A stretch of 51,251 bases of DNA from a virus. Made by a program: the position numbers and the translations under genes. The stretch is from the IMG/VR virus record IMGVR_UViG_3300045912_000471, positions 1 to 51,251 of that record. One strand, 5' to 3'. How positions within the stretch are numbered: the stretch's first letter is position 1; every line of letters starts with the position of its first letter. The notes beneath the pieces are model-generated. The model was given only the letters and a program-made list of their open reading frames with translations. It was not told where the DNA came from and made no database searches. Shown here piece by piece: positions 5,380 to 41,609 of this stretch.

Positions 5380-5437
5380 AATCAAAAAAGTAGTTTCTCA
5401 TACCAAGTGGTGGGTTCTTCCACCATCTCCACAAAGC

Positions 5438-5647
5438 CTATATTCTGAAAAAAACTTTCAACTTTTCTGTTATTCCAAGCTCCCTATACACTTCCTCCAC
5501 CAAGTTCAAAAGCACCCAACTATCCTTCCCGCCACTGAAAGCCACAAGGACATTATCAAACGTATCAATGATATGTTCTATTCGTTTCTTTGCTTCTGTG
5601 AGTACGTCATTGCCGGTGTAAGATACGCTATCCTGAAATTTAGGCAT
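5438..5647 (-). pseudogene. Truncated IbrA/CysH-like PAPS-reductase family gene
   Basis: The first 69 residues of a PP-loop protein: a helix (DVLTEAKKRIEHIIDTFDNV), the nucleotide-binding VAFSGGKDSWVLL, a second helix, then KVFF and a stop. The intact relative at 47771-48910 continues with FFLDEEVVYES and about 300 more residues, so all substrate-binding parts are missing here. The break lies at a run of seven T (coding strand of 5448-5454). A -1 slip would add about 20 residues ending at 5382 next to the parB-like start, but still not the domain. The ATG at 5647 overlaps the preceding remnant. Probably a decayed gene. Confidence 0.7.
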
Positions 5648-5819
5648 AATAATTATTGTCTTTAATGAAAATCTGCAAACGTTCGGCAGTGGTTTCCGCC
5701 TCATTGTATTTGCGTTTCAAGTATTTGATAAAACCGTTGTAGGCTTGCTGTTGCTCCTCATTCTCAAAAACCAGCGTGGTTTTGAGTGTGTAAGAACCCT
5801 CATTTCTGAATATGTAATG
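5640..5819 (-). pseudogene. 5'-truncated remnant of an unknown gene
   Basis: A frame with no ATG start encodes 59 residues ending in a protein-like helical tail (ENEEQQQAYNGFIKYLKRKY, then AETTAERLQIF) and stops at 5640, overlapping the cysH-like ATG. Immediately upstream in frame is a TAA. The normal-looking composition and the gene-overlap geometry suggest the 3' end of a lost gene. The membrane-protein gene at 5717-6241 runs across it in another frame. Confidence 0.5.
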
Positions 5820-6241
5820 TTAATGGGTGCCTGTTTACAGACAGATTCGTTTCTCTCATTTCGGGGAGATACTTGTTTAGAAGCTCCGTTTACACAATAG
5901 ATAACATCATCTTTTATCCAAAACAGCCACATATCGTGTACTAAAACGGCTATACCATTCTCTACCTCCACCACCTCTATCTGGTCAAACGGAATTGATT
6001 TTTTAGTAAACCGCTCTAAGCTTCTTTTTATTTCCTCTTTATTGACTGATGATTTTCGCACAGTCATATCTTGCTGTACTTTATTCACTACTTCATCTTG
6101 TTTGGATACGGCAAATATAAAAAAGAAAATACAAATACCCGCAACCACCCAAAAAGGTTTTTCTATAATCACTTTTTTCCCATCCGATTTTATAAATAAA
6201 AAACCAAACAGACGAGGATATTTTTCTACAAGATTTCTCAT
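5717..6241 (-). CDS. Single-pass membrane protein, C-terminus possibly chimeric
   Basis: 174 residues from the ATG at 6241, 5 bases after the preceding small gene. The N-terminal 30 residues are basic and hydrophobic. One strong membrane helix (FWVVAGICIFFFIFAV) lies at about residues 33-48, followed by a soluble domain. The last 28 residues (from MRVLTHSKPRW) are read in a frame that overlaps the remnant at 5640-5819 and look non-native, so the gene was probably extended or cut by a recombination event. No family recognised. Confidence 0.55.
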   Translation of the reverse strand: MRNLVEKYPRLFGFLFIKSDGKKVIIEKPFWVVAGICIFFFIFAVSKQDEVVNKVQQDMTVRKSSVNKEEIKRSLERFTKKSIPFDQIEVVEVENGIAVLVHDMWLFWIKDDVIYCVNGASKQVSPRNERNESVCKQAPINITYSEMRVLTHSKPRWFLRMRSNSKPTTVLSNT

Positions 6242-6245
6242 ACAA

Positions 6246-6350
6246 TTAACTGAAAAAAAGTTGCTTAATTCCTGCAATAATCGCCACGATTATCAGGATG
6301 ACACCTGCCATAATCAGGTTATCTTTAAAATTTTGTTCTCTGTTATACAT
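6246..6350 (-). CDS. Tiny single-helix membrane protein (34 residues)
   Basis: A short polar N-terminus (MYNREQNFKDN) is followed by one strong transmembrane helix (IMAGVILIIVAIIAGI) and a stop. It sits tightly between the tape-measure gene and the 5717-6241 membrane protein on the same strand, 5 bases before the next ATG. Small one-helix proteins like this can be holin- or antiholin-like, but there is no direct evidence for that. Confidence 0.55.
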   Translation of the reverse strand: MYNREQNFKDNLIMAGVILIIVAIIAGIKQLFFS

Positions 6351-6442: not shown

Positions 6443-8998
6443 CTATCTCCTATTATCACTTCGCTCCTCTCTCTCCTTGTAGGATTTGAAAAGCACATCT
6501 CCGTCAAGAGTTAAGACAATAGGGGCTTGTTCTATGTTGTTGTTCACCAGCGGAGCTGCTACGTTCACATCAGGACTTGCCATCAGGGATTTTTGTTTTG
6601 CAACATTATCCTGAAGCTTTTGCATATCCTGACTTTTGACAACGTTTTCCACAGTGGATTTTACAGTTGCCTCATCAGCAAACGGGTTGATGCTATTCAC
6701 CGCATCACTCACAAACTGCTTAAAGTTTTCCCAAGCGGAGATAAAGCCTTCTTTGATTTTATCCACGAGCATCACACCCACCTCCAGAAACTTCAAAGGG
6801 AAACCCAAGAAGTATTCTAAAATGCTTTGCCCGGCTTGTAAAAAGAAACTTACAAAGCTCTCCCAAACACCCACCAGCCAATCCACAATCCCACTGAAAA
6901 AGTTACCAATCGCCTCCCAGGCACTCTGAAATAGGTCAGCAAACCAATCCACAATACTACCCCAGTTGGCAATAGCAGCTACCACCAGAGCAATGATTCC
7001 GAGAATGAGCAGTATTGGCCACGTGCTAGCCAGAACCGCAGCAGCCAGCATAAACATCTTGACGGTGAGCAGGACGACTGCCACTACCAACACCCCTGCA
7101 ATGATGTTTCCGAACCTTGCTCCAGCCACTCTCATATCCTCAATCGTGGTGGTGGCTTTTGAAATGCCCCCCTCAAACTTGTTCAACGGAGCGAACACCG
7201 CTTGAATAGCACTGGAGATAGCATTCCAAACCGTTTGTATCACATTCCAAACGACTTTAAAGGTGTGAGCAACACCCCTGCCGAAAGCTTCCACAAACTC
7301 TTTTGCTCTAATGAAATAGGTGATGAGGTTAAGGGCAAAATCCTTAATTCCCATCTTATCCAACGCTTTCATCATTTCATCAGAAAGGTCGAAGAATTCC
7401 CCGTTCCACGAGGATAACGCCTCTCTCACCGCTCCGATTAAGCCCCCCACCTTCTGCAAGAAACCCAAGAAGCCTGTGGCTGGCTTTGCCGTTCCGCTCA
7501 GTACCTCGCTGAACGCATCCATCGCAGAGGTAACGAGCTTATACACTCCGTAGATAGCCAATCCCACCACGATGTAGGGAAGCATGGGCATGAGGGCAGC
7601 TTTTGCCGTCATTGCCAGAGCTTTAAGTCCTGCCGTCAGATTACCTGTAGCGAAGGCGGTGGATACCTGAGCCATTCCCATTGTTTCAAACGCCATGGCT
7701 GCTTTGAGACTGGCGACTTTGGCTAGATTCGTCATCACAATCCAAGACCCAAGGGCAATCAATGCAATCCCCAAGATACCTGCAAGAATGACAAAGCTCT
7801 TTCCCAAAGGGGTTTGAGCAAACTTGGCAGCAGCAGCCACCACACCCCCCAGCATATCCGTAAGGCTTGTAAGGGTGGGTAGAAACGCGGAGCCAATGGC
7901 TGTTTTAGCATTCTCAACATTAGCCTCCATTCGCTTCTGAGCCTCTGCGTAGGTGTTCATGATGATAGCCGCCTGCTCTGTGGCTGTGGAAGTCCCTGTA
8001 ACCTGCTTTGCAAAACCCTCCAGACGTGGGTCTAGGTCGTCAATGTTTTTCATCAAAAGCATTGCAGCGTTCTTATTCTCCACACCGAAGACTTTGGAAA
8101 CAAGGGCAGCGTCATCCTGTATTTTCGCAAGTTCCCTAATCCTTTCTGAAAAGGGCAAGGTCGTGTCTGAAAGTTTCTGAATGTTCACGCCCGCAGCCGT
8201 AAGCCCCTCCGTTGCATCCTTGGGGAGAAAACGACCCTCTCCTAATTTTCCTAAAACGTTTCTCAGAGCCGTTCCCGCCTCACTGCCATACACGGTGCCT
8301 TTACCCATTACCTGCACAGCTGCATTGAACTCCTCAAAACTCAAATTGGCTGATTTGGCAGCCAAACCCGCCACCTTCAAACTTTCAGCAACCTGTGGCA
8401 CTTCTGCCGATCCCGCTTGAGCACCGGCTGCCATCGTATTCATCATTCGTACCATCTCCTCAGAGGCTTTCACAGGGTCATCGAGTGCCACGTCGTACTG
8501 TAACATCGCTGTGGTAAGGGCGTTTACCGCTCCTTTTGCGTCTCCTCCCATCGTCTTGGAGAGCGTTGCTACACTGTTAGCCATACCCTCAAGGGCAACA
8601 GGGGACTTGGCAATATCAGGACCAAGACGAGAAAGGATAGTCTTAAAGCTATCCACATAATCGGTTGCTTTACCACCAAATGTGGAGGCAAGGCTTTGGG
8701 CTCGCAGACCCAAATCATCGAGTCCAGCTCCACTGATGCCCGTGATGGCAGAGAGGTCTGCGAGTTGTGCCTCAAAGGCTTCCGCTGATTTGATACTCGC
8801 TCCGATGGGAGCTGCAAGAGCCAGACCCGCACCGATGGCAGCCGCTCCCACAGCCATGTTGCTTAGAGCTTGATTTACCTTCTGCTCCATTTCGGTGGCT
8901 GCCCCTGCAATGCCCGCAAGAGAGGATTTTATACCGTCTGCTGAGTTGCTGAACTCATCCTTCAGATAGAAGACAAGTCCCATTCCTAATTCACTCAT
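6443..8998 (-). CDS. Tail tape measure protein
   Basis: An 851-residue protein that sets tail length. It has an alanine/glycine-rich N-terminus (SLAGIAGAATEMEQKVNQAL), a TP901-type tape-measure domain over about residues 70-370, several long hydrophobic helices between about 370 and 750 (for example GKSFVILAGILGIALIALG), and tryptophan-rich membrane-like repeats (IGNFFSGIVDWLVGVWESFV). These are typical of tape measures that also help DNA entry. It follows tube and sheath, with only 33 bases between it and the tube gene and so no room for the usual chaperone genes. Confidence 0.9.
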   Translation of the reverse strand: MSELGMGLVFYLKDEFSNSADGIKSSLAGIAGAATEMEQKVNQALSNMAVGAAAIGAGLALAAPIGASIKSAEAFEAQLADLSAITGISGAGLDDLGLRAQSLASTFGGKATDYVDSFKTILSRLGPDIAKSPVALEGMANSVATLSKTMGGDAKGAVNALTTAMLQYDVALDDPVKASEEMVRMMNTMAAGAQAGSAEVPQVAESLKVAGLAAKSANLSFEEFNAAVQVMGKGTVYGSEAGTALRNVLGKLGEGRFLPKDATEGLTAAGVNIQKLSDTTLPFSERIRELAKIQDDAALVSKVFGVENKNAAMLLMKNIDDLDPRLEGFAKQVTGTSTATEQAAIIMNTYAEAQKRMEANVENAKTAIGSAFLPTLTSLTDMLGGVVAAAAKFAQTPLGKSFVILAGILGIALIALGSWIVMTNLAKVASLKAAMAFETMGMAQVSTAFATGNLTAGLKALAMTAKAALMPMLPYIVVGLAIYGVYKLVTSAMDAFSEVLSGTAKPATGFLGFLQKVGGLIGAVREALSSWNGEFFDLSDEMMKALDKMGIKDFALNLITYFIRAKEFVEAFGRGVAHTFKVVWNVIQTVWNAISSAIQAVFAPLNKFEGGISKATTTIEDMRVAGARFGNIIAGVLVVAVVLLTVKMFMLAAAVLASTWPILLILGIIALVVAAIANWGSIVDWFADLFQSAWEAIGNFFSGIVDWLVGVWESFVSFFLQAGQSILEYFLGFPLKFLEVGVMLVDKIKEGFISAWENFKQFVSDAVNSINPFADEATVKSTVENVVKSQDMQKLQDNVAKQKSLMASPDVNVAAPLVNNNIEQAPIVLTLDGDVLFKSYKEREERSDNRR

Positions 8999-9031
8999 AT
9001 AAAAAAGGGGCTTTTACGCTCCATTTAATGG

Positions 9032-9457
9032 TTATCTAACTTTCTCTAACTCATTTACGACTATTTCAACAGTCGATATCTGGTTTTCTCCTTCCATCGT
9101 GGCAAGGTCTCCCATATCCACGTTTCGCACCCAGCCCCTGACTTCCCAAATTTCGGTGTTGTCTTTGGTTCTGACAGTGAAGTTGAACTCAAAGCCGGGG
9201 TCAATGTCTCGGTTTTGGTTTACCCCCACTTTTCTGAGTTGCTCCCACGCCCAGTTATCCGTAGTCCCTAAGTTGGTTACTTTGGTCATTGTGATGTTGG
9301 GAAAACGAACGGCACCGGGTGTTTTCACTACTTTCCCGCCTTCGTTGTGTTCCACCTCATCCACCTCAGCACCAAGACCCGCGATGCTTTGCACTGATAG
9401 GGCATCTACGCCGTCAATTTCAACGACGTAGTCTTTCTGTTTTCTTTGAACTGCCAT
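9032..9457 (-). CDS. Tail tube protein
   Basis: A 141-residue protein of the T4 gp19-like tube family. It opens with RKQKDYVVEIDGVDALSVQSI and has the pattern VVKTPGAVRFPNITMTKVTN followed by WAWEQLRKV, which fits the beta-barrel tube fold with the strand that contacts the next ring. It lies directly between sheath and tape measure, the usual order in contractile tails. Confidence 0.88.
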   Translation of the reverse strand: MAVQRKQKDYVVEIDGVDALSVQSIAGLGAEVDEVEHNEGGKVVKTPGAVRFPNITMTKVTNLGTTDNWAWEQLRKVGVNQNRDIDPGFEFNFTVRTKDNTEIWEVRGWVRNVDMGDLATMEGENQISTVEIVVNELEKVR

Positions 9458-9459: not shown

Positions 9460-11052
9460 TTAAATAACGTTAAATTCTTGATTATTACCTCTTAAAATAC
9501 CCTCAATAGTTACCAGGTCGCTGGGTGTTACAAAACCCTCAATGTACTCCGTGGCGGGTACTGGTGCAAAGGCAAACTTCCACTTCCACTTACCCGCAGA
9601 CAAATCCTCTTTGGTGTTCACCTGCAACTCATCCACGCTTTTAGCGTACTGATCACCAAAGAAACGAGCCTTGCCCTGATAGATAGCTCCTTTTGTCTGA
9701 TACGCCTCAATATGTGGTTTGAGTTTGAGGAATGTCTTTCTGAAAAACGGCAAGTCATTGGGTCTGAAGCTCTGCTCAGCAATAATGACCTTGAAATTTC
9801 GGGCAATGTCAAACACCAAATCCGCCACGTTTTCCTTTGAAAGAATTTTGCTTCTGTCTCTGAATAGACTTCTGTTACCCTCTAAACCCACATTACCAGT
9901 TTCCTTATTTCCCACAGCATTAAAGCCTTCCTCATATAAACTATCCCAAAGGGTTTTGAGAGCTGGAGAAAGTAAATCAAAACTGATTCCGTTCTGATTG
10001 TAAATACGAGCAAAGTCGTTTTCCTCATTATCCTGAGCGGCAGAAAGCCACGTTTCTTTGTTGTCCTTTCGGGCAATACACGCCAGCACATCCCCAAAAC
10101 AAGCAATAGAGCGGGTAGCTCCCACGTTGTCAGGGTCTGATACAGTAATGTTGGGACACAGCACAGCCGTTCCGTACCAAGTATTGAAAGCTGTATTGGA
10201 GGCATGAGAGCCTGTGGCTTGCAAATACCCCTGTATTGCCTCCGCATCCGCTTTTGATTGAACACTTTTAACAATGATGAAACGCAAGTCTTTACGGCTC
10301 TCCGCATAGTTACGCATCGCATTATCCACAGCATACGTGGTACGGGCAATATTGGCAATTCTGAAAGCTCTGCGTTCTGCGTCAAAGGCATAGATACCCG
10401 TTTTGGCATCCTGATCACCCGTGTAATCCGTATCCACGATGTTTGCCACCACCTCCGCACCGGAGGCAAGTGTCGCTGTCGCTGACGTGGGTAGCTGTGT
10501 GGTGATTGCTCCAAGCGACACGTGTTTAAGCATGTCGTTAAGAGCGTTCTTTTGAGCCACAGAGGGTACCTCAGGAATGTCTGTGATGAATTGGTCTTCC
10601 AGACCAGCCACTTTCACACGCAAATCCACGTGGTCAGCTTTGGCAGACTTGGCAGGGGTGAATATTACCTGAATGCCGTTGTAACCAGCTCCTACGGATT
10701 TGGCTTCCACTACCACACTCCCCACACCCGCCTCAGCAGCGGTGGCAGAGGCTTTCGTGCCTGCAAGAGTGGCAGCGTCCGTAATATCCGTGTAGTGTCC
10801 CACACGGCACACGATAAGTTTTGCTCCTCCGTCAAGTGCTCTCTTGCAGAGAAAAGGGAAATCTGTGGTGGTGGTTAAACCTCCGAATTCACGCTTAAAC
10901 TCGTCCCAGTTCCGAACGAGGGTGGGCGTGGCGTGCTTGCCCAATAATGTCGGACCCCACACCAGAACCACTCCCTTCAGGGTAGGTACAGGCAGGGCTG
11001 ACAAATCAACAACCTCAAGGGTGTTTTGTGGAGCTCCAAATATTCCGTTCAT
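9460..11052 (-). CDS. Contractile tail sheath protein
   Basis: A 530-residue sheath protein that surrounds the tube and contracts on infection. The N-terminus (LKGVVLVWGPTLLGKHATP, then VRNWDEFKREFGGL) and the C-terminal domain (FRKTFLKLKPHIEAYQTKGA, then VQVNTKEDLSAGK-like LQVNTKEDLSAGKWKW) match the sheath family. It starts the sheath-tube-tape-measure cassette and its stop is 2 bases from the tube gene. It is the clearest sign that the phage is a myovirus. Confidence 0.92.
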   Translation of the reverse strand: MNGIFGAPQNTLEVVDLSALPVPTLKGVVLVWGPTLLGKHATPTLVRNWDEFKREFGGLTTTTDFPFLCKRALDGGAKLIVCRVGHYTDITDAATLAGTKASATAAEAGVGSVVVEAKSVGAGYNGIQVIFTPAKSAKADHVDLRVKVAGLEDQFITDIPEVPSVAQKNALNDMLKHVSLGAITTQLPTSATATLASGAEVVANIVDTDYTGDQDAKTGIYAFDAERRAFRIANIARTTYAVDNAMRNYAESRKDLRFIIVKSVQSKADAEAIQGYLQATGSHASNTAFNTWYGTAVLCPNITVSDPDNVGATRSIACFGDVLACIARKDNKETWLSAAQDNEENDFARIYNQNGISFDLLSPALKTLWDSLYEEGFNAVGNKETGNVGLEGNRSLFRDRSKILSKENVADLVFDIARNFKVIIAEQSFRPNDLPFFRKTFLKLKPHIEAYQTKGAIYQGKARFFGDQYAKSVDELQVNTKEDLSAGKWKWKFAFAPVPATEYIEGFVTPSDLVTIEGILRGNNQEFNVI

Positions 11053-13498: not shown

Positions 13499-14776
13499 TT
13501 ACCAGAATTTGAATAGCTGCTGCAGATAAGCATCCACATCCAACCAGGAGGGGAACGGAGCTGCTCCGATTGTTTGGTCTTTACGCAACATCACACGTGC
13601 CCCACGTAAGATGATGGCAAAGCCACTAAAATCAGACACAAACAACTCGTTTGTCTGGTTCTTGGGGTTACGGCTCTGCTCCATACGCATTGCTCCGAAA
13701 CTCAGTTTCGCCAAGGCGTTGGCTGTGTTGATGAACATCAAATGGTTAGCGGGCAATACGTTGGCATCTGTGGGCAAGCCTGTGTAGCTGCCAATAGTGC
13801 TTCTGTCACGGCTTTGAAGCGTTCTGTTTAAGTCGTAAGACAAATCACTTTCTTGAGCGATGATACGAGTAGCAGGGTAGCCCAAACGGCTCATTCGGTT
13901 TTTCACCATATCCATATCTGTCTCTTTGAAGCCGTCTGTGGTGTTATCAATACCTACAACAGCACAGGACTCATCTCCTCCCGCCTGCTCTCCGTTCACT
14001 AAAACATCCATTGCCAAGGCATCATTTTGGAGGTTCATGTGGTTTCCAACTACTCCCAAAGAGATTTGTGTCAGAGCAATGGTGCTTTCTTGAATGAGCT
14101 CATCACTGATTTTGAAGCCACGTCCCACTTTGAACACTTTGACTTCTTTGTTGTTGAAGTCTAGCGTTCCGAAGGGAATGTCTGCCCCCTCGTCCACATA
14201 TCTCATAAACATATCCCCCTCATTCACATAGGGCATATTGGCTTTTTGAGAGCGGAGAGCCACCTGCGTAGCCACCCAGTTTCTCCACTGCCCGCCACCT
14301 GCATATCCTGTACGGATAAGCTCCAAGAAGAGCTCAGGAATGATAAAACGAAACGGAGCATACTTAGAAACGGTTTCCAGATTGTACTGACCGTGTTCGA
14401 TACACGCTTTTGTCAGTTCCTCTTTGGAGATTGTTCTATCTCCTCCCAAAATACCGATTGCCTCTGCAATGGTGTTATTAGAGAAAATGCCAATTTCACG
14501 CAATACAGCGAAAAAGTCAGCTCCAAAATATGACTTTGACCATTCGTTTGCAGACAAGTCCAACGCGGGGACAACATTGTCGTTTTCGTCCCTTACTCTC
14601 CCGGAACGAGCCGCAATCAGTTGCCCGATAAAGCCTTTTTTGTCAAGATTTGACAAATGGTCTAAAATAGCCTTTTGCACAGCCTTCTCGGTTTCTCTGC
14701 CAGTGCCTCCCGCTGCTCTGTCCTTCATGTGGGCATTTAGTTTTTCAATGCTCAAATTTTCTGTGTGTGTCGTCAT
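13499..14776 (-). CDS. Major capsid protein (HK97-fold)
   Basis: 425 residues. A helical N-terminal arm is followed by the capsid core with RTISKEELTKACIEHGQYNL, VKVFKVGRGFKISDELIQES, a peripheral domain, and ILRGARVMLRKDQTIGAAPF near the end. The pattern of a strand-loop with a GR..KISDE helix and a late IRRGARV-like segment is typical of HK97-fold capsids. It follows the protease/scaffold and decoration genes and precedes the neck genes. Confidence 0.85.
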   Translation of the reverse strand: MTTHTENLSIEKLNAHMKDRAAGGTGRETEKAVQKAILDHLSNLDKKGFIGQLIAARSGRVRDENDNVVPALDLSANEWSKSYFGADFFAVLREIGIFSNNTIAEAIGILGGDRTISKEELTKACIEHGQYNLETVSKYAPFRFIIPELFLELIRTGYAGGGQWRNWVATQVALRSQKANMPYVNEGDMFMRYVDEGADIPFGTLDFNNKEVKVFKVGRGFKISDELIQESTIALTQISLGVVGNHMNLQNDALAMDVLVNGEQAGGDESCAVVGIDNTTDGFKETDMDMVKNRMSRLGYPATRIIAQESDLSYDLNRTLQSRDRSTIGSYTGLPTDANVLPANHLMFINTANALAKLSFGAMRMEQSRNPKNQTNELFVSDFSGFAIILRGARVMLRKDQTIGAAPFPSWLDVDAYLQQLFKFW

Positions 14777-17470: not shown

Positions 17471-17530
17471 AATAATTATTTGTGCAAAAATAGTAATTTA
17501 ATTTGCATATTTTTGAGAAAATAATTATTT
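17471..17530 (+). promoter_or_regulatory. Promoter-like region for the portal gene
   Basis: TATTTTTG at 17508-17515 fits the -7 consensus TAnnTTTG. A TTTG at 17479-17482 gives a 25-base spacer, longer than usual. The segment from TTAATTTGC to AATAATTATT is nearly the same as that upstream of the baseplate gene at 28515, so the two + strand structural units probably share control. Confidence 0.45.
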
Positions 17531-17532
17531 CT

Positions 17533-19854
17533 ATGTTTGAAAGAATAAGAAATACTCTGAGAAACTATCTCAGAATTGAAAATAAAGTACAACAGGAAGC
17601 CACCATCCCAAGAGAAACCACCAACATTGCCTCCACCACCAAGAGTAGTGAGCAGTATTGGGAGATATTTGGGATTGAGGAATCACAAATCCCCTCCGAT
17701 TACAGGGGATTATTTGAATTGCTTGAGTGGCTTTCTGTGGAACATCAGGACTTCTCTTTTGCCATTACCAACATTCTGGATTTGGGAAATACCGATTTCG
17801 AGTTTCGTTTTCCTTCCAGCGTTCCCAAACGCTATAAAAAGCAGATGATAGAAGCTCTCTCACTATTCAGAGATAACTGTTACAGAACCAACGGCTCTGT
17901 ATCTTTGGGCTACAAGCCTCTTGTGAGAATGCTCTTACGCCAACTCAGTGTCCATGGGGCATTGAGCGTGGAGGGGGTGTATGATCTGAAGGGCAACGGA
18001 AACGTGGTGCAAGTGCCTCACGACTCTGTGTATCTCTATAACATAAAGGGAGAACCCACCCCCTACCAACAGCAAACGAAGGGGATGACAGCCCTCAACC
18101 CCAACACCTACAAGTATATTCCACTCGACACAAAGGTAAAGAGTCCCTACGGCATCCCTCCTTTTGTGTCTGCGTTGGAGGCTATCGGCATTGAGCAGGA
18201 TATGATTAAAAACTTTGCTCAAATTGTTAAGAAACTAGGGCTTTTCGGCTTTCTGCAAGTGGTCGTTACCCCACCTCAAAAGAAGCCGGGAGAGGATGAG
18301 GAAGCCTACATCAAACGGGCACAGAAGAAACTTCAGGAGGCAGCCGACGAAGCCAAGAAAACCAAGAACGATGGCATTGTGGCAGGGTTCAAAGGGATGC
18401 ACGAGTTCACACTGGAGGCTGCTAACATCAATTCCGCAGGAGCGGAGGCGATGCTTCGTATGATCGATATTCTCAAAATCTCAGGGATGAAGCAAAACGC
18501 CAATATGCTTAACAGGCAGATGAGTACTACCGAAACCTTCGGACGGGTGTTACTGGCTATCTTGGGTAAACAAGTGATTTCGTTTCAGGAGCAAGTGGCT
18601 GTATTTCTGGAGAGCTATTTCAAGATGCATTTGCGTTTCAAGGGCTTCGACCCGAAATATTATAACTCCCTTCAGGTGTGGTTTGAATTACCCCTCACAG
18701 GCGACAAAGTGAAAGAGGAAGAGATTTCCTTAAAGAAGGCAGAGCGTTTGGTGTATTTACGAAACGAGGGCATCATTTCGCAAGATGACGTTGCTATCGG
18801 ACTCGGTTTTGAAAAAGCCTTTGCGGACGCTCCTGTGAGCCACAATGAGCCTGCTCAGAGCGAACCCCTGCCCCCTGACGGAGCGAAGACAGACCCCAAC
18901 AATCCTGATGCTGCCCTATCAAAAGCTATTTTTTATCTGACAAGAGGCAAGGCGGAGTATCTGTATGAAGCTCCTGAAACCTGCGGACACGCGGAACACT
19001 TGGAACTTGCCGGGGAGAGGAAGTATAACAATTTCGTCAGCAACTTCGCTGATGATATCGCCTCTCAGTACAAAAGGGAAATCAAAGCTGTTACCAAAAG
19101 CCTTGGGGCTTTTCTAAAAAAGTTTGACGGTTTGGAGCAGGAGGAATTTACGAAGCGTTTTTTAACGCGTCTGTATGGCGTGTGGGACTTGGAAAGCAGG
19201 ATTGAGGAGGATGTGAAAAGTAACGTCAATGATATTTACAAGTTTTACCGAAAGGATAAAGCTGTATTCAAACTGAATATTCCTGACCCTGTGATTGATG
19301 GTTTCGACAAGCGTGTAATGGAATGGTTCAGAAAGCATAGTTCTCTCTATTTGGGTAAATTCATCACTGACGAGGATACGAAACAACGTATTGCGGCGTG
19401 GATTGCTCAATACTACGTGGAGCAGGGCGGAGAGATTGGAGAGGCTGCCGTAGAAGCCTTCACACAACAGTTTCCAACTGTCCTTGCCGGGGAGGAATGG
19501 AAAATAAAACGCATCACAGACACGGTGGCAAACCAACTTCGTAACGGTGGGAAAGTGGCGTATATGCAACAGGCGGACGTGGAGGAATACGAGATTGTGG
19601 AGGTGATGGATAAGATAACCTGCCCCCACTGCAAGGAGATGAACGCTCGAAAGTTCAAGGTAGCTACAGCCGTTTCGCTTTTAGAGCAAATCATTGAGGG
19701 AGAGGAGGACGCTATCATCAGTGCCAAACCCTTCGCCACTACCATTAAACCAAAAGATATTGCAGATATGACGAGCGAAGAGCTTGCCAGCAAAGGAATA
19801 CTGTCCCCGCCCTTCCACCCTTCCTGCAGGGGGGTTGTGGTGGCAGTTTTGTAG
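17533..19854 (+). CDS. Portal protein fused to MuF-type head protein
   Basis: 773 residues from the ATG at 17533; the earlier in-frame ATG at 17503 lies within the promoter-like element. About residues 50-430 match a phage portal (STVSLGYKPLVRMLL-like GSVSLGYKPLVRMLLRQLSV, VPHDSVYLYNIKGEPTPYQQ and a helical stem region). The C-terminal part, about 480-773, is a Mu gpF-type minor head domain ending in ITCPHCKEMNARKF and LSPPFHPSCRGVVV, the family's conserved C-x2-C and P-x-H-P-x-CRG motifs. The two are separate genes in many phages, so this is a natural fusion. It is the only head gene on the + strand. Confidence 0.87.
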   Translation: MFERIRNTLRNYLRIENKVQQEATIPRETTNIASTTKSSEQYWEIFGIEESQIPSDYRGLFELLEWLSVEHQDFSFAITNILDLGNTDFEFRFPSSVPKRYKKQMIEALSLFRDNCYRTNGSVSLGYKPLVRMLLRQLSVHGALSVEGVYDLKGNGNVVQVPHDSVYLYNIKGEPTPYQQQTKGMTALNPNTYKYIPLDTKVKSPYGIPPFVSALEAIGIEQDMIKNFAQIVKKLGLFGFLQVVVTPPQKKPGEDEEAYIKRAQKKLQEAADEAKKTKNDGIVAGFKGMHEFTLEAANINSAGAEAMLRMIDILKISGMKQNANMLNRQMSTTETFGRVLLAILGKQVISFQEQVAVFLESYFKMHLRFKGFDPKYYNSLQVWFELPLTGDKVKEEEISLKKAERLVYLRNEGIISQDDVAIGLGFEKAFADAPVSHNEPAQSEPLPPDGAKTDPNNPDAALSKAIFYLTRGKAEYLYEAPETCGHAEHLELAGERKYNNFVSNFADDIASQYKREIKAVTKSLGAFLKKFDGLEQEEFTKRFLTRLYGVWDLESRIEEDVKSNVNDIYKFYRKDKAVFKLNIPDPVIDGFDKRVMEWFRKHSSLYLGKFITDEDTKQRIAAWIAQYYVEQGGEIGEAAVEAFTQQFPTVLAGEEWKIKRITDTVANQLRNGGKVAYMQQADVEEYEIVEVMDKITCPHCKEMNARKFKVATAVSLLEQIIEGEEDAIISAKPFATTIKPKDIADMTSEELASKGILSPPFHPSCRGVVVAVL

Positions 19855-20248: not shown

Positions 20249-20491
20249 TTACTCATGCGATTTTTCAGGCACAAAGTCAGAAAGTAAAAATCCTGTACCT
20301 CCAATATTTTGCGGTAAATTGCTTGTAAGCTTCAAAACGTCTAATTCCAATCGGGCTGATTCCACAATGACACTGCCTAAATCAGCAACAGCTTTGGCAG
20401 TTTTGCTGTCCATTTTATCATCAGGGTCTAAAAGCCTCTCAATCGTTTCAAACATCAGGTTTCTTACGTCAGTTATCTTGTTCCTTGCCAT
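20249..20491 (-). CDS. Small conserved phage protein ([10 protein letters not shown] type)
   Basis: 80 residues beginning [20 protein letters not shown] with a helical middle (SKTAKAVADLGSVIVESARL). From memory, proteins of this pattern (KITDLRNHLF...AKAIADVAQVIVNSAK) are frequent in phages and prophages near regulatory or Mu-like early genes. Their role is unknown to me. The start overlaps the end of the HNH gene. Confidence 0.65.
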   Translation of the reverse strand: MARNKITDVRNLMFETIERLLDPDDKMDSKTAKAVADLGSVIVESARLELDVLKLTSNLPQNIGGTGFLLSDFVPEKSHE

Positions 20492-21140
20492 TTTCTTGTA
20501 GGGTTTTATTGATTGTTCTTTTTAAATTTGCTATTGCCAGAGTTGCCTCCTGTATGTCTTTGGGGTATTTCTGTAAGTGGTGATAGTTCCGTCTGGCGTG
20601 TTCAAACCGTGTAACCAGCATTAAATTATCAAGATGAATGTTAGTGCTGTCTCCATCCACAAAAACCAAGATTTGATTTTTTGGTAGTTTGCCGTGTATA
20701 TCTTCCCAAAGTAGGACATGCTTTTGTTTCCAGACGTTTGGATCTGCTACTTTCACATACAAATATCCATCTGTCCACCTTTCACTACCCACTGGTCTGT
20801 AATTGTGGGGCTTATGTCCTTTTTTAAATCTTGTGGATTCAGACTTTTCTATTTGCTCAGGTGTCATGAAATCGGTTTGCTTTTTTCCTTTATTGTAGGG
20901 AATACTACCTTTCTTAAATCGGTAGGAATGTCCCCTATTACCATTCAGTAGTCTTCCTGATAGCTCGCTTTTTTTAAATGCTTCACTCTTTTCAAGTCCC
21001 ATCTTGAAAGCTATACCATAAACAGATCTTACTTTTCTGTTGAGATCCTTAGCTAAATCAGCGGTTCTTGTATCTGCATATTTAGCTTTGATGATTGATA
21101 GCTCCTCTTCACTGTATTTCCCTTTCTTCATATTTAACAT
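20469..21140 (-). CDS. HNH endonuclease with HTH N-terminus
   Basis: 223 residues (220 if the ATG at 21131 is used). The N-terminal 55 residues ([20 protein letters not shown]) form a helix-turn-helix-like DNA-binding region. The centre has NUMOD-like and basic segments ([19 protein letters not shown]). The nuclease core is [20 protein letters not shown] followed by [15 protein letters not shown], an HNH pattern with H, N and H/N in place. It is probably a free-standing homing endonuclease inserted between small genes. Confidence 0.85.
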
Positions 21141-21675
21141 GATTTTCTAGTTTAGGGTATTCCAAATATTTGATGCCATCGAGGGCGTTTACTATTTTTT
21201 CAGAGGTTTTGATAAATCCACAATTTTTATAGCTTGGCTCAATCCAATCATAAGAACCGTCTTTACGGAAGAAATTTATTTCATTTCCCTCTACTTGCTG
21301 ATTTGTTGGTGAATTATACCAATAAGGAGGCTCAGGAGTGTACTCGTAGGGATTCCAAGCTCCCCACTGCTTAAAGAAAAATGCTACTCCATTTTCTTTA
21401 CAAGCATCTCGGATGTCCCTCACCCATTGCGGATTCATGGGTCTGGCTTTGTGTCCTGATTCTCCTCCTACGATTACCCAGTCAATTTTATCACATCCAC
21501 GGTCTGTATAACCTATTGATTTATAATAAGTCCAATACCTACCCAAAAGAGAATTTATGTAAGCATTTGAAGATTCTACTACTATTTTTGTAAAATCTAT
21601 TAGAGGCTCTGCACTTACAAATCTCACTTTTGCTGGAGTCTCCAAAAGAAAAGGGATTCTTTCATTTTTGAACAA
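21109..21675 (-). pseudogene. C-terminal fragment of DUF5131 (phage Gp37/Gp68) family
   Basis: 188 residues matching the second half of DUF5131 proteins: [40 protein letters not shown] and [12 protein letters not shown]. The family normally begins with a segment containing a CxxCYA-like cysteine motif, as in radical-SAM-like enzymes, and that half is absent. The preceding gene (21662-21964) overlaps by 14 bases and is unrelated, so a deletion probably replaced the N-terminal half. Confidence 0.7.
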
Positions 21676-22783: not shown

Positions 22784-22814
22784 CAAAGTTAATAAAAATA
22801 ATTTAACTTGCAAA
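22784..22814 (-). promoter_or_regulatory. Bacteroidota-type promoter for gene 22268-22753
   Basis: Minus strand: TTTG (22811-22814), a 19-base spacer, TAACTTTG (22784-22791), followed by TAGTAGTTAAAC. Spacer length and downstream words match the promoter at 42769-42799. Confidence 0.65.
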
Positions 22815-22854: not shown

Positions 22855-22892
22855 TTAAAAAAGGTAGGGCGTAACTGCCCTACCTTTTTCTG
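22855..22892 (-). terminator. Terminator of the chaperone gene
   Basis: GGTAGGGC and GCCCTACC (22863-22870 and 22877-22884) form an 8-bp stem with a 6-base loop, with T residues following on the minus strand. The stem overlaps the stop codon (22880-22882) of the frameshifted chaperone product, which supports that product being real. Confidence 0.7.
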
Positions 22893-23859
22893 GATTTTGC
22901 TTTTTCTATTTCCCGGTTCTCCTTTTCCTTCAGCTCGTTTGCCTTCTCCAAAAGCCGTTCCAAGTCTCTGAACGTTATTTTTTCCAGTACGTTTATGGAA
23001 AAGCCCTTGATGTCGGCGGCTGAGAGCCAAAAGGCGAAGTCTAAGAGGTCTGAACCCGTCGCGGGGAAAAAAAACTTGGTTGGAAGATGGAAATGGTTTC
23101 GGTTTTGGAGGGTACATCTCCCTCATTGTATTCAAGTTTGATGGAAATGTCGAAGTCCCCCTCACGCTTAAAAACCTCCTGATACATATAGGAAATGTCA
23201 TATCCCGTTATTCTGTCCAAAAGGATTGGATAGAAATTCCCCTCCTTGCCCTCTGTCTTGGATTCCTCCCAGATGCGGGGATCACGCATTTTAAGAGCCA
23301 AATCGATGTCTGCATTCTTCACGGTGGCGAATTTGTGTTCCTTCTCTCCGTCGAGCAGATGGAGCTTTACGTTTCTACCGTCGTTTGGCAGTTTCACCAC
23401 GAAAGAAAAGTGTTGGAGTACGTCCTCATAGCTGCTATACATTGGCACACGTTCCTCCGGGTTGGCAAAGTCGTAACCTTGTTCTTTGAGCCAATCAGCA
23501 TAGAAGCCATACGGCTTTAATCCGAAATTCTGCTCGTTTAAGTCTATGGAAACCTCTTTTTTGCGTTTGTGGATTTTGCCAAATGCCTCTATGGAGAATG
23601 TGTGTTCAAACTCCAAAGTTTCGGGAAATTCAAAAGTTGCCTGTCTAATCAGAAACACGGCATAAGCTCTGTCGGCAGACCCCATCCGCTTAATCTTCGT
23701 TTCAGTGAGGTTTTTGTCCTCTCCCAAACGGACGATACGTCTGGCCAGCAGTTTCTCCATTCCGTTTTTTCCTCCGTTGAGGTCTTTCTTATCCTCTCCC
23801 ATAAACGGGCTTACTTCTATCTCTATCCCGCTGGGGAGGATGGCTGTGTGTGTTTTCAT
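22880..23859 (-). CDS. Tail/baseplate assembly chaperone with probable -1 frameshift
   Basis: The zero-frame product is 272 residues and stops at 23041. Its opening (LPSGIEIEVSPFMGEDKKDL) resembles T4-like baseplate-hub or tail assembly chaperones. At coding-strand positions 23074-23067 a run of eight T could let ribosomes slip back one base. The -1 frame then stays open to 22880, adding about 62 residues: PATGSDLLDFAFWLSAADIK, then a charged helix (DLERLLEKANELKEKENREI). That extension is protein-like and ends exactly at a terminator. Slippage to make long and short chaperones is well known for phage G/GT and E/E' pairs. The usual slot upstream of the tape measure is empty here. Confidence 0.7.
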
Positions 23860-23925
23860 TTTTTGATAATTTAGTTGTCAAAATTTTTATAAAAATAATT
23901 ATTTTTAACTATGTTTTAAAAAAAG

Positions 23926-23958
23926 TTTGTAAAAAAATTATTTTTGTTGTTATTTTTG
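23926..23958 (+). promoter_or_regulatory. Promoter for gene 23972-24400
   Basis: TTTG (23926-23929), 21-base spacer, TATTTTTG (23951-23958). The start codon is 13 bases after the -7 box, so the leader is only a few bases. Confidence 0.6.
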
Positions 23959-23971
23959 AAAAACATTTTAT

Positions 23972-35983: not shown

Positions 35984-36340
35984 CTACAAATACTGATTTA
36001 ATAATATGGTATTTGCTTCATCATCTGTGATTCCATTGTAGGCTGAAATCCTTTTCACACGTATTCTTGGATATAGTGCAAGCAAGTTGTTGTAAACTCC
36101 TCCAATATTCATAACATTTCCTGTATGACCGCCAGTTAGTTTAACGGCAATCAATACGAAGCCCCCTGCAACTTTTTTTGGGTTTGCACCAATAACATTT
36201 AATGTTAAAGTTGTAGCTTTTGAAGGTGCTGATTTTAAAAAACGGTAGAATTTGCCCCAAACTTTTGGGGTCATATATTCACCAGTAATCGGGTGGTTGC
36301 CACCATGACCGGCATCAACGATTACACAAATTTTTTTCAT
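35984..36340 (-). CDS. Tail-region protein with amidase-like N-terminus
   Basis: 118 residues. The opening ICVIVDAGHGGNHPITGEYM resembles the start of Amidase_3 zinc amidases (D-x-GHGG), but no later His/Glu zinc ligands follow. The rest is beta-rich (SKATTLTLNVIGANPKKVAG) and helical at the end (ITDDEANTILLNQYL). It ends the baseplate/fibre operon. It may be a fusion of an amidase fragment with a fibre-tip domain, or the similarity may be chance. Confidence 0.5.
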   Translation of the reverse strand: MKKICVIVDAGHGGNHPITGEYMTPKVWGKFYRFLKSAPSKATTLTLNVIGANPKKVAGGFVLIAVKLTGGHTGNVMNIGGVYNNLLALYPRIRVKRISAYNGITDDEANTILLNQYL

Positions 36341-36570
36341 AAAATAAAGTTTGAGGGTTGTAATAAATCTTGAATACTTTCTCTTTCATCATCAAAAATA
36401 ACATCTTGTATGTATTGATTTGGTTTTAAAAAAAACCAAATATCTTGTTCGTAGGCTTTTTGGATATTAGCCCAAGTTTCTGTACCATTTTGGTCTGGAA
36501 ACCCCATTGCATTGTCGATTTTTTGCAAGGCTGTTTCTGCTTTTTCGTATGTGTCAAATATATAGTACAT
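36337..36570 (-). CDS. Small tail-operon protein
   Basis: 77 residues from the ATG at 36570, one base after the preceding stop. A longer frame from 36756 would overlap the fibre gene. It contains TYEKAETALQKIDNAMGFPD and an acidic tail. Perhaps a fibre-assembly chaperone by position; no family recognised. Confidence 0.5.
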   Translation of the reverse strand: MYYIFDTYEKAETALQKIDNAMGFPDQNGTETWANIQKAYEQDIWFFLKPNQYIQDVIFDDERESIQDLLQPSNFIL

Positions 36571-36571
36571 A

Positions 36572-37231
36572 TTATGGTGTAAATTCGTGGTATGCTTGTA
36601 AGTATGTTTGCAGGCGGTTTCGTTGGTCTGTGGTGAGTTCTGCTGAAAACAAAATAAGACGTGAAATATTACCTTGCCAACTTCTGAAACCGAAGCCCCT
36701 ATCTTGCCCAATCCATAATTGAGTAGGTTGAGGTGGAATATAACCGAAAAAATCACTTACTGTTTTTTTAGTTAATGCAGGGAGGAATATATTTGTACTT
36801 ATATTATTTACACGCGTCCCTCCCCCAAGTGCTAAAAAAGATGTGCTATTTAAATCTAAAACTAAAGGGATATAACCTGAATTTGATAGTGTTACAAGCC
36901 CATCATATTGTTTCGCAAGAGGTAAATCATAAGTTGCAACAGACCAAATTTCCTGTGGGGTTTGTCCCAAATTTGGATTGAAAAGATGAGACCCTATCCC
37001 ATTAAAATAGCAATCATCTGAAAGTTTCACGGGTTGCTTACTTGCAATTGCTTGTGCTACTGTAATGCCCCTATCCGTATAATCCACAACATAATCAACA
37101 CCAGAATCGGTTCTTAATGTAAACTTGCTATCTTGTTTTGCATCAAAATCAAAAATAACAAGGGCGGCAATATCATTATCTAATGCGGGCTCATTATTGC
37201 CAGCCATCATACTTCCAAAAAAATGCCTCAT
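36572..37231 (-). CDS. LamG-like tail fibre protein
   Basis: 219 residues. The C-terminal 110 have the look of a concanavalin-like lectin domain (YDGLVTLSNSGYIPLVLDLN, then WQGNISRLILFSAELTTDQR, NRLQTYL), a frequent sugar-binding module in fibres. The upstream neighbour is another fibre-region gene and they overlap by 4 bases. A host-binding role is inferred. Confidence 0.6.
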   Translation of the reverse strand: MRHFFGSMMAGNNEPALDNDIAALVIFDFDAKQDSKFTLRTDSGVDYVVDYTDRGITVAQAIASKQPVKLSDDCYFNGIGSHLFNPNLGQTPQEIWSVATYDLPLAKQYDGLVTLSNSGYIPLVLDLNSTSFLALGGGTRVNNISTNIFLPALTKKTVSDFFGYIPPQPTQLWIGQDRGFGFRSWQGNISRLILFSAELTTDQRNRLQTYLQAYHEFTP

Positions 37232-37734: not shown

Positions 37735-38342
37735 TATCCAAAAGTGTTATCAAAAGTTCTGTCAAAAATTCTTAAAGGAAGTATTTCCAGATTTCTGAAT
37801 CTGGCGTGAATGGGACGATTAAACTCAATAATCCTATTCGCTAATGCTAAAAAATCACTGTCCTGCACAACCGTATTCGGTACGTAGAGAATGATATCAA
37901 ACTCTCCCGTCGCACCACCGGAAACATCAAAAGTACCCACATCGAAAGTGCCGTTGTCAAAGCCCCCTGAATTACTCACCTCCACCACCTCCGCCTTGAT
38001 GCCGAGCCAGTTGAACATTACGATATAGTTTAATGCCTTACCCTTGTTTTGCATGAGTTGGTAGCCATAGCGTACAAACTTTCGCTTGAGGCTTGCTGTC
38101 TCAAATACCTGATTGGCTCCCAAAAGAGCCTCAAAGTACCCCAAGAACTTATCCAATACAAAACTTGGGTGTCTGTTTAAAAGCTCGAAGTTGTCGATAT
38201 AAGGCTTCGTTTGTTCCTCCAGCTCCAAAGCGTGCAGGTCCTGATAACGTTGCCAAATCCCCTTTCCCTCGTTGTTTCGGTTGGTGTCTCTGCTTCTATA
38301 AAAGCTGCCCCAAAGCCTCCAAGCCAAATCCTTTATACTCAT
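37734..38342 (-). CDS. Baseplate protein gpI-like
   Basis: 202 residues directly after the gpJ-like gene, the standard position for P2 gpI. It has a helical N-terminus (SIKDLAWRLWGSFYRSRDTN), a middle LASLKRKFVRYGYQLMQNKG-like helix, and a late LALANRIIEFNRPIHARFRN, which resembles the gpI C-terminal pattern. It links the wedge to the fibres. Confidence 0.7.
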   Translation of the reverse strand: MSIKDLAWRLWGSFYRSRDTNRNNEGKGIWQRYQDLHALELEEQTKPYIDNFELLNRHPSFVLDKFLGYFEALLGANQVFETASLKRKFVRYGYQLMQNKGKALNYIVMFNWLGIKAEVVEVSNSGGFDNGTFDVGTFDVSGGATGEFDIILYVPNTVVQDSDFLALANRIIEFNRPIHARFRNLEILPLRIFDRTFDNTFG

Positions 38343-40006
38343 ACCAAACCTCCTGTTACGTTTAGGGTAATGTCTGTTGCCTTGATAACAGGGATACTCG
38401 GTTCTGCCAGCTCTATCCTCCCACCCCTGTCGCCTAAGTACGGATAACTTTTGAACGTGAAACGGTTGTTGAGAGCGTAAGAGCCACTAATCGTAAAATC
38501 TATTTCCGTTTCCACCACCAACACCCCTGTATTGAAGTTTCCTACAAACATTCCGTTTTTGATGAGTTGAAACGTAGTGGCACCGGTGAATAGCACTTCC
38601 CACTCCACAATCGCTGTGGAAGTGGGTTTGATGACGGGTGTCCAATTCAAGACAATCGTTGTTCCAACGGGTCTGGCATACGGTACAGCGTTGAAATCAT
38701 AGAGCCTTGCCTTCTTGACACGGGGTAGGTTTCTCACAAGCTGATAGATGTCATCAGCCCCCACCGATCCCCCTATCTCCTGATTGGCAAGGCTGCCAAA
38801 CGCCACCAGTGCCTCTCTGATTTCAGAAGCCTTCTGAAGGTTATTCTCTGAGCTCTCCACCTCCACATCCAACGACATTTTCAAGCGAACCTCTCCTGCG
38901 TTTTGTACTCTTGTGGTGGTGCAAATGATTTTTCTAGCGTCAAGACGGGCTTTTACAAACGTCAGGAACGCATCAGAGGCAAGCCCACCCCCTGAAGGAA
39001 CGATGAAGAAATCCACGATGTTCCCTCCTGCATATTGTACCCCTGCCTTTGCCACTCCGGCAATGAGTTCACAAGCATCTGCGTGTCCCTTTTCCGTAAC
39101 CATATTGGAAAGGGTATTGATGAACTTGGGGATATTGCGTTTAAGCTCTGTGAGGTTTTCATAGTCCTTGCCCCCTGTGGCAGAAAGGGCGTTGGTAACG
39201 CTCAACGTTGCCCCGGATTGAACACTAATGAAATCAGAAATATTGGTAATGCTATTCTCTGCTACGTTGCCCTTCGCTCCGTCTGTGATGTAGTAGGTGG
39301 TGGTGATGGGTTGCCCAATGGTGGGAGCAAATCCATTCACTCCATCCCCCCAAACGACTTTCGTGGGGGCAATGCCTGTGTCAAGGTCGATATCCAAGAT
39401 ACTGGAAACAAAGTGTTTTTGTGTGGGAAGGCTCTCAAATAAACTCTCCTGAAAGAAGTATTCATCCGATCCGATGGTCATCTCCACGCTTCCATCCACC
39501 ACACGCTCCGAGATGATAAAGAACCCGTTTGAGGTTACGGCTCCCGCTGACACTGCCGATACCAATATCTTGTTTTCTGCCTCCACAGACACCTCCGTTT
39601 CTCCGATGGGAATGGAAGTACTCTGCTTTGTGAAAAAACGAATGTCATCGTCTGTGCGAAGCTCTGTGCCTGCAGGAATGATAACCTCCTGTGTAGCCTC
39701 CTCAGAGAGCGTAAAGGTAACAAGCACCATAGAAGCGAAATAACCTCTCACTCTGTATCCTACCCCTTCAGCAATATACACAGCGGATTTAAACTTCTTG
39801 CAGGTGAAAAGATGTACCTCCTGACTCTTTCTGTCCAAATAGTAATGCAAACCCTCCACTACCCTAAACCAAATATTCCGCAGTCCTCTGAGCATTACGT
39901 CTTTTTCGTAATCCCTGATTTCAGGTAAAAGCGTGGGTAAGACGGCTTTCGTGTCCTCCCACATTTGGGCAGCCGTTCGGCTTAAATATCCTATGAAATT
40001 ACTCAT
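38339..40006 (-). CDS. Baseplate wedge protein gpJ-like
   Basis: 555 residues of the Baseplate_J family (P2 gpJ / T4 gp6). Features include EVIIPAGTELRTDDDIRFFT, an internal KGNVAENSITNISDF and ENLTELKRNIPKFINTLSNM with VTEKGHADACELIAGVAKAG. It forms the wedge ring that controls sheath contraction. The gpW/gp25-like gene is upstream and overlaps. Confidence 0.9.
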   Translation of the reverse strand: MSNFIGYLSRTAAQMWEDTKAVLPTLLPEIRDYEKDVMLRGLRNIWFRVVEGLHYYLDRKSQEVHLFTCKKFKSAVYIAEGVGYRVRGYFASMVLVTFTLSEEATQEVIIPAGTELRTDDDIRFFTKQSTSIPIGETEVSVEAENKILVSAVSAGAVTSNGFFIISERVVDGSVEMTIGSDEYFFQESLFESLPTQKHFVSSILDIDLDTGIAPTKVVWGDGVNGFAPTIGQPITTTYYITDGAKGNVAENSITNISDFISVQSGATLSVTNALSATGGKDYENLTELKRNIPKFINTLSNMVTEKGHADACELIAGVAKAGVQYAGGNIVDFFIVPSGGGLASDAFLTFVKARLDARKIICTTTRVQNAGEVRLKMSLDVEVESSENNLQKASEIREALVAFGSLANQEIGGSVGADDIYQLVRNLPRVKKARLYDFNAVPYARPVGTTIVLNWTPVIKPTSTAIVEWEVLFTGATTFQLIKNGMFVGNFNTGVLVVETEIDFTISGSYALNNRFTFKSYPYLGDRGGRIELAEPSIPVIKATDITLNVTGGLV

Positions 40007-40350
40007 CTTAATACAAATTCTATGTCTTCCAAAACATTTTGGTAAGTGTACTCCACATTGTATTTAATTACGCCCCCTTCCGTCTGAAAAATATTAACTC
40101 CCTCAAAAGTGATTTCACTAATGGAGCTTAAAGCTGCTGCCACCGTGTTAAATAACCGTTGTTCTACATAATTGAGGTCGTTTGGAGTGAAATCCAGAGA
40201 GCGAAGAAGAGAACCAAACTCCCTATCAAAACCGAATGTGGCTAAAACATTTTCCAAACTTTCCTGTACAAACTGTTTGATAGCTTGTGAAGAATTGTTA
40301 ATTTTAGCCCTGCCATTTGGCTGAATATCAATAGGAAAAGTAAGCGTCAT
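40003..40350 (-). CDS. Baseplate wedge protein gpW/gp25-like
   Basis: 115 residues matching the gp25/gpW lysozyme-like family: NNSSQAIKQFVQESLENVLA, FDREFGSLLRSLDF (the conserved EFGS motif), and a C-terminal strand pair. First gene of the wedge operon. It overlaps the gpJ-like gene by four bases. Confidence 0.88.
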   Translation of the reverse strand: MTLTFPIDIQPNGRAKINNSSQAIKQFVQESLENVLATFGFDREFGSLLRSLDFTPNDLNYVEQRLFNTVAAALSSISEITFEGVNIFQTEGGVIKYNVEYTYQNVLEDIEFVLR

Positions 40351-40364
40351 CTTTTAATTTGATT

Positions 40365-40410
40365 TTCACAAAAATTGCAAATTTAGTTTACAATTTTTAA
40401 AAAAATAACA
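40365..40410. promoter_or_regulatory. TTTGCAAA-type element at divergent promoters
   Basis: The gap between the minus wedge operon and the + parA fragment carries TTGCAAATTT and AT-rich runs like those at the other transcription divides. No clear -33/-7 pair seen. Confidence 0.35.
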
Positions 40411-40421
40411 ACTATTTTATA

Positions 40422-40625
40422 ATGAGAATCATCGCCATCGTGAATCACAAAGGAGGAGTAGGCAAAACTACCACCACCCTGAACCTAGGCAAAGCCCTTG
40501 CCCTCTTGGGAAATAAAGTATTACTCATTGACCTCGACCCGCAAGCCAACCTCTCACAGAGCCTCGGTTATGATGACGAAGAACAAACCGTGTATGAGGT
40601 GCTTTTTTATTCATCATTCAAATAA
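40422..40625 (+). pseudogene. Truncated ParA-type ATPase
   Basis: 67 residues with a perfect deviant Walker A ([20 protein letters not shown]) and Walker A' ([20 protein letters not shown]), then a stop. Full ParA proteins run to about 200-400 residues; the Walker B and C-terminal parts are absent. The minus-strand methylase gene ends 2 bases later, so an insertion or deletion probably cut it. It suggests a plasmid-like past. Confidence 0.75.
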
Positions 40626-40627
40626 TT

Positions 40628-41287
40628 TTAATTGTTGTAAGGCTTTTTTAGTAGCCTCCAAATGCCTAATCCATTCATATTGATTTGCCACACTCTGAAA
40701 TACTGAAGCCTCAGCGTGTCCCCGTTGCAAACCTCCCCCTTCATTCCGTTGATAAAGAAATTCAAGGCACACAGCTTGGCGGTCGTTTGGTTCAAGTCGC
40801 AGCCAACAAAAATATTATTGGGTGCTTGCTCAGCGTATGCTATCAGAGTTCTGCCAGAGCCTACCGCCGGATCATTTACTTTTTGTCCTGTGGTTTCCTT
40901 ATCCGCCCCCTGAAGCATTACCATTAGCTTGCAAATCTCCATGGGTGTAAAAAACTGCCCTAATCTCTCATCTGCAAAATACTCCTCGTAATACTCCCCC
41001 AGCGGGTCGGTGTATGGATTGTGCCAGATGTACTCCATAAAAGAGGCAAGTATTTTGGTAAATACCTCTAAATCCTTTTGAGAGTAGCCTTTTATGGTTT
41101 CACTGTATAGCTTTTCGTTTTCCTCATCCTTTGCCAGCATCCCGGTCATCAGGTTGGTTCTGTGAAAGGTGCAGAGGCAGAGGGTTAAAAAATCATCAAA
41201 TACTTTGTGTCTGGAGAGGTGTTGAAAGTGGTCAAAACCTTTCGCTATCTCGTTACTATTGTGCTTTAGCCTTTGGGAATGTTTCAT
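40628..41287 (-). CDS. N6-adenine DNA methylase-like protein
   Basis: 219 residues from the ATG at 41287, which overlaps the upstream stop. It has ADERLGQFFTPMEICKLMVM and VNDPAVGSGRTLIAYAEQAP, the AdoMet-binding motif of HsdM-type N6 methylases, and FVGCDLNQTTAKLCALNFFI. The NPPY/F catalytic motif is not present before the stop, so the enzyme may be short-form, need a partner, or be inactive. It ends next to the cut parA. Confidence 0.75.
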   Translation of the reverse strand: MKHSQRLKHNSNEIAKGFDHFQHLSRHKVFDDFLTLCLCTFHRTNLMTGMLAKDEENEKLYSETIKGYSQKDLEVFTKILASFMEYIWHNPYTDPLGEYYEEYFADERLGQFFTPMEICKLMVMLQGADKETTGQKVNDPAVGSGRTLIAYAEQAPNNIFVGCDLNQTTAKLCALNFFINGMKGEVCNGDTLRLQYFRVWQINMNGLGIWRLLKKPYNN

Positions 41288-41586: not shown

Positions 41587-41592
41587 AATAGG

Positions 41593-41609
41593 GGGAGGGT
41601 TGCCCCTCC
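41593..41609. other. Hairpin before the zinc-finger gene
   Basis: GGAGGG and CCCTCC arms with a 4-base loop lie 7 bases upstream of the zinc-finger start on the minus strand. No T-run on that strand, so it may affect translation start or RNA stability. Confidence 0.35.

Follow-up and report, generated by a model that had tools for sequence, protein, structure and literature searches.

Annotators usually look for tail-assembly chaperones just upstream of the tape measure gene, and the locus described here raises the question of how a chaperone-like gene that lies elsewhere should be read: whether it encodes a frameshifting chaperone, and whether such a gene has to stand beside the tape measure gene to do its work.

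Layout of the locus

The window, meaning the whole stretch of DNA analyzed, is an IMG/VR record of 51,251 bases. Its contractile-tail genes lie on the minus strand and include those for the tape measure protein (6443..8998; phrog_28, 2.3e-48), the tail tube (9032..9457; phrog_4542), and the tail sheath (9460..11052; phrog_23). The terminase (2546-4147) and major head protein (13499-14776) genes are also on the minus strand, the portal and hub/spike genes are on the plus strand, and a baseplate wedge gene occupies 38339-40006. The gene under study begins with a zero-frame ORF of 272 aa on the minus strand (23041..23859), which encodes a putative tail-assembly chaperone short form (G-like/TAC-N) resembling T4 gp26. 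The original prediction that only 33 bases separate the tube and tape measure genes and that the chaperone lies about 14 kb away was confirmed on both counts, as the interval spans 8999-9031 and holds no chaperone.

Several other features of the window were observed. The head and tail genes (2546-40006) are dispersed on both strands, and they follow a canonical one-strand order in the related contig G003; those of a second related contig, G004, are dispersed too, but in another arrangement. Positions 4888-5704 (minus) and 47771-49425 (plus) both match G003 58159-59911 and form an opposite-strand gene pair, duplicated or partly degraded. Two minus-strand ORFs at 36337-37231 (36572-37231 and 36337-36756) overlap out of frame by 185 bases and match adjacent G004 genes (5202-6095 and 6097-6327), representing either an overlap or another frame change. 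At 20469-21675 (minus), an HNH endonuclease gene adjoins a DUF5131 gene whose match covers just the second half of the profile, and the portal ORF (17503-19854, plus) has a C-terminus like that of a minor head protein, the G004 portal being only 448 aa.

A candidate -1 frameshift

On the coding strand, a run of eight T (23074-23067) precedes the zero-frame stop, as originally noted. The slippery heptamer T_TTT_TTT occupies 23068..23074 (minus), with the T run reaching 23067, and relatives conserve it as T_TTT_TT(T/C/G). In the window, the zero frame is AGT TTT TTT TCC at this point and ends at a TAG at 23043-23041. The -1 frame continues for 62 codons and a TAG (22880..23068, minus), encoding a putative T-like/TAC-C domain (FPATGSDLLDFAFW...EIEKAKSRKR) that would bring the long form to 326 aa, with the predicted junction peptide ...QPSFFFPATGSDLL.... 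This TAG, at 22882-22880, lies inside the 5' arm of an intrinsic terminator (22857..22890, minus; -22.5 kcal/mol, z -6.4) composed of a 14-bp hairpin and a T tail, and none of 200 shuffles was equally stable. Both a -1 frame of about 62 residues ending in a terminator hairpin and its protein-like character had been foreseen, and both hold, as the codon use of the extension is coding-like and its pattern is common to relatives.

The codon-usage score of the extension is 0.193, compared with 0.246 +/- 0.075 for in-frame genes and -0.41 +/- 0.18 for off-frame sequence; off-frame stretches of 62 codons were open in 58 of 1020 cases, and none of the 1020 reached the score of the extension. Because this stretch also gives fairly high scores in two other frames (one sense at 0.10, one antisense at 0.12), the score alone is not decisive, and it is conservation in five relatives that establishes the extension as real. 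The window phage has 10 in-frame T_TTT_TTN sites in 11,520 codons, giving a chance of ~1% of finding one within any 12 codons. Separate initiation is unlikely, since ATG, GTG, and TTG are absent from the first 35 codons of the extension, which is modelled as helical (pLDDT 69). Folding revealed no stable RNA structure 3' of the window slip site (z 0.33). Downstream folds are stable in the related contigs G003, G001, and G005 (z -2.1 to -3.5) and absent from the window, G004, and L024, and for this reason a stimulatory RNA structure is not claimed as a conserved element.

Conservation in divergent relatives

The window and L021 proteins had no match when searched directly against GenBank phages, single-sequence scans of IMG/VR and GTDB yielded no relatives, and sheath scans gave no match. 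A terminase search led to three related IMG/VR contigs, two of which encode a chaperone homologue, and an alignment of these led to further homologues; a later scan with seven sequences added no contig. Five relatives have a readable 3' end (G003/L020, G001, G004/L019, G005/L021, and L024, a homologue from a Planctomycetota MAG), and they are divergent, at 24-32% identity.

In all five, a heptamer T_TTT_TTC, T_TTT_TTT, or T_TTT_TTG is read in frame, the zero frame stops 22-31 bases away from it, and the -1 frame goes on for 55-80 residues; the extensions share a common pattern and mostly end in charged helices. Most relatives have six T followed by C or G (CTTTTTTC etc.), with the heptamer strictly in the zero frame. 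The comparison with related phages that had been proposed as a check of the original prediction thus found the heptamer, the early stop, and the extension kept in every relative, and at the level of sequence the frameshift reading of the chaperone gene is supported.

Family membership and predicted fold

The window protein has no match in Pfam or PHROGs, and hence falls below the curated cut-off of PF12322. It does match an ORF of the L024 contig (E 1e-10 over 268 aa), which in turn matches PF12322 T4_baseplate at 5.5e-14 (score 52.8, cut-off 24.5), and phrog_150 'baseplate hub' is hit by members of the homologue alignment with values down to 3.4e-20. The AlphaFold2 model (pLDDT 85) was matched by Foldseek, in the predicted models of BFVD, to named T4-like baseplate hub assembly proteins with a probability of 1.00, TM 0.50-0.60, and E down to 9e-10; fold and sequence searches of the PDB gave no convincing match. 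Through L024 and the predicted fold, the window protein belongs with the T4 gp26/PF12322 'baseplate hub' family. The link is drawn through the intermediate and the fold because direct profile-profile comparison with the gp26 set gave weak evidence (probability 13%, 78 columns).

A putative chaperone unit apart from the tape measure gene

Four of the five relatives have the chaperone directly before the tape measure gene. In G003 and G001 the chaperone stands between the tube and tape measure genes, and its extension stops only a few bases short of the tape-measure ATG; in G005 the chaperone adjoins the tape measure gene, and in the L024 contig sheath, chaperone, and tape measure follow in line. 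The original likening to the G/GT and E/E' chaperones is supported by this arrangement. The exception is G004, where the chaperone (9695-10486, plus) is followed by its own terminator and the tape measure gene lies at 39412-41616 (minus). In neither the window nor G004 does the gene have the location between the tube and tape measure genes that serves as a membership criterion, and we therefore file the window gene as one that 'works like' G/GT, its homologues being found in that location. The displacement thus occurs in two divergent contigs, both extensively rearranged. In the terL tree, the window groups with G001/G002 and G004 with G003 (89/92 support), and in the chaperone tree the window and G004 are weakly paired (63/25), so that the trees are compatible with either one move or two.

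Beyond the terminator, the next gene has a Bacteroidota-type promoter, TTTG-N19-TAACTTTG (22784..22814, minus), consistent with a chaperone unit that ends at the terminator. On the other side of the gene is an AT-rich divergent intergenic region (23860..23971) with a palindrome, AAATAATTATTT, at 23893-23904, and it is likely that this region carries the chaperone's own promoter. The consensus Bacteroidota promoter was not found on its minus strand, and because a motif model for promoters, started from seed sites, shifted towards AT-rich sequence between genes and was rejected, no chaperone promoter is claimed. The palindrome AATAATTATT occurs at seven window sites (5648, 16687, 17471, 17520, 23894, 28497, and 32091) against 0.2 expected from base composition, several copies being directly upstream of structural genes, and three relatives have at most one copy; it is possibly a phage-specific control element.

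The most plausible explanation, in which we place considerable confidence on the strength of the sequence, its conservation, gene order in relatives, the tie to the family, and the modelled fold, is that this is a tail-assembly chaperone gene that works like lambda G/GT and P2 E/E', has moved into a unit of its own, and would yield two forms by a -1 slip. Most ribosomes would produce the 272-aa short form by normal decoding, and a minority would produce the 326-aa long form, with its helical C-terminal domain, after stepping back one base on T_TTT_TTT through -1 tandem slippage of tRNA-Phe at U_UUU_UUU. In lambda, coating of the tape measure falls to the short form and recruitment of tube subunits to the long form (PMC5009743); by analogy, the presumed partner of the short form would be the tape measure protein, which it would coat, and that of the long form would be the tube subunit, which it would bring in. 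The gene would have shifted from the tube-tape measure interval to a terminator-ended unit amid extensively rearranged structural genes, and the two forms would act in trans.

Alternative explanations

The long form could also arise if RNA polymerase, and not the ribosome, slipped on the eight T and made transcripts with an extra base. A run of this length is long enough for transcription slippage to be plausible, and the window site has no obvious downstream stimulator. However, most relatives have only six T and a C or G, and their heptamer is still held strictly in the zero frame, while the in-frame position of all 79 cyanophage T_TTT_TTC sites considered below is the pattern of tandem tRNA slippage, leaving polymerase slippage an unlikely source. 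That the split gene is an artefact, with a miscounted homopolymer dividing one frame or a chimeric contig feigning the distance to the tape measure gene, might be suspected of a single metagenomic contig with a homopolymer of eight. The same split occurs at the T6 sites of relatives, which speaks against a T8 miscount, G004 offers an independent case of the gene lying far from the tape measure and followed by a terminator of its own, and the upstream AT palindrome recurs at other structural genes of the window genome and is nearly absent from relatives; we regard an artefact as highly improbable. About 6% of off-frame stretches of 62 codons are open, but the idea of a fortuitously open frame 3' of an ordinary gene is refuted by conservation, the heptamer and extension being common to six of six loci, and chance can be given practically no weight.

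A different objection concerns function, namely that the product stays in the particle as a structural protein of the baseplate hub, whereas a chaperone would leave it. The family names 'baseplate hub' and 'T4_baseplate' borne by phrog_150 and PF12322 members point this way, as does older T4 genetics, which placed gp26 in the hub (PMC3004832). The same review, however, classes gp26 and gp51 among the chaperones of hub assembly and has gp51 missing from the particle, and the position before the tape measure gene in relatives and the frameshift pair are both marks of a chaperone. A structural role is accordingly judged rather improbable, and a displaced frameshifting chaperone remains our preferred reading.

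Implications

What is unusual is that a frameshifting chaperone stands in its own unit, far from the tape measure gene, in two divergent, rearranged contigs. We lean slightly towards the broader view that frameshifting tail chaperones can leave the tape measure gene and work in trans from their own unit, that they have done so more than once, that placement in cis is not needed, and that phages regarded as 'chaperone-less' may carry one elsewhere. More than one move is proposed because the window and G004 fall apart in the terL tree. The displaced gene also makes it possible to ask, in a natural setting, whether chaperone and tape measure must be co-expressed in cis. Gordonia cluster DJ was reported without a chaperone, with an atypical location raised as a possibility (PMC12859696), and a conserved slip site with its extension can reveal a chaperone anywhere in a genome. 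The findings would also extend the T4 gp26-type frameshifting chaperone to contractile-tailed phages of about 50-70 kb with probable Bacteroidota hosts.

Comparison with known systems

Obtaining two forms of a tail chaperone by programmed slippage is commonplace among tailed phages. Lambda G/GT and P2 E/E' share with the window gene a short and a long form and a -1 slip shortly before the first frame ends, a likeness that is drawn here without sequence similarity. Both lie immediately before the tape measure gene, and their proteins are much smaller than the window's. As in the window, the chaperones of Vandenendeviridae and Andersonviridae, such as that of phage Adele, have a conserved poly-T -1 site where TAC-N ends, but they are encoded upstream of the tape measure and their motif is given as GTTTTT (PMC12846349).

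All 79 cyanophage gp26 loci (L046-L125, L044) have T_TTT_TTC in frame, only a few codons ahead of the stop, and in all 79 the short 'gp51' is the -1 frame; the codon before the heptamer varies (AGT, TCT, GGT, AAT, or GAT), and the heptamer is always in frame. The -1 extension is of about 60 aa. Unlike in the window, the cyanophage gene is immediately followed by a large gene that probably encodes the tape measure, and in many cases its extension possesses an ATG and has been annotated as a gene in its own right, whereas the window extension has no early start. Annotated cyanophage records that we examined enter gp26 and gp51 as two separate genes, and a 2010 comparison found cyanophage gp51 to be without the first ~200 residues of T4 gp51 (PMC3037559). 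T_TTT_TTC with a -1 extension was also found in Astolliot, Moby, Vibrio 6E35.1a, ME01, P-RSM6, and PA5oct, with T_TTT_TTG in Rhizobium RHph_I9 and T_TTT_TTT (a T7 site) in XacN1; CBA120 and Vibrio D532 have a -1 ORF without the heptamer. An extension-like frame lies at +1 in gp26-family genes of Streptomyces LuckySocke and pSt2308, Streptococcus GXN1, and LR756508 (L040, L045, L041, and L043, one of them from a huge phage), and both Streptomyces genes end in CTC TGA, reminiscent of the RF2 site.

In T4 itself there are two paralogues with PF12322: nothing follows the domain in gp26, and in gp51 it is followed by about 48 residues at the C-terminus, which the extension profile matches, in a tiny database where E-values are only relative. 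T4 gp26 (TAC-N) resembles the window's short protein, to which it appears homologous through L024 and the fold, and it likewise does not lie directly upstream of the tape measure, being on the opposite strand with genes 51, 27, and 28 between it and tape measure gene 29. The difference is that T4 has two separate paralogous genes (gp26 short, gp51 TAC-NC), and the window has one gene with a slip site. As cited in PMC10885494, Vladimirov et al. 2022 (doi: 10.1016/j.virol.2021.11.003) described T4-like phages as having one short and one long chaperone gene instead of frameshifting, and, as cited in PMC12846349, poly-T slippage signals in T4-like TAC-N genes. The gp26/gp51 scheme is not claimed as new because these citing papers credit it to that study; the count of 79 of 79 is our own.

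Pseudomonas phage PA5oct also has a PF12322 'baseplate hub' gene with an in-frame T_TTT_TTC and a -1 extension; it differs in being a jumbo phage whose frameshift is unannotated. Its tape measure was not located with PF10145, and as the next gene is on the other strand, the PF12322 gene is not directly before a tape measure. Since T4 gp26 and the PA5oct gene are partial precedents, the surprise of the displacement is limited: the kind of gene found in the window is already known, and it is its place that is unusual.
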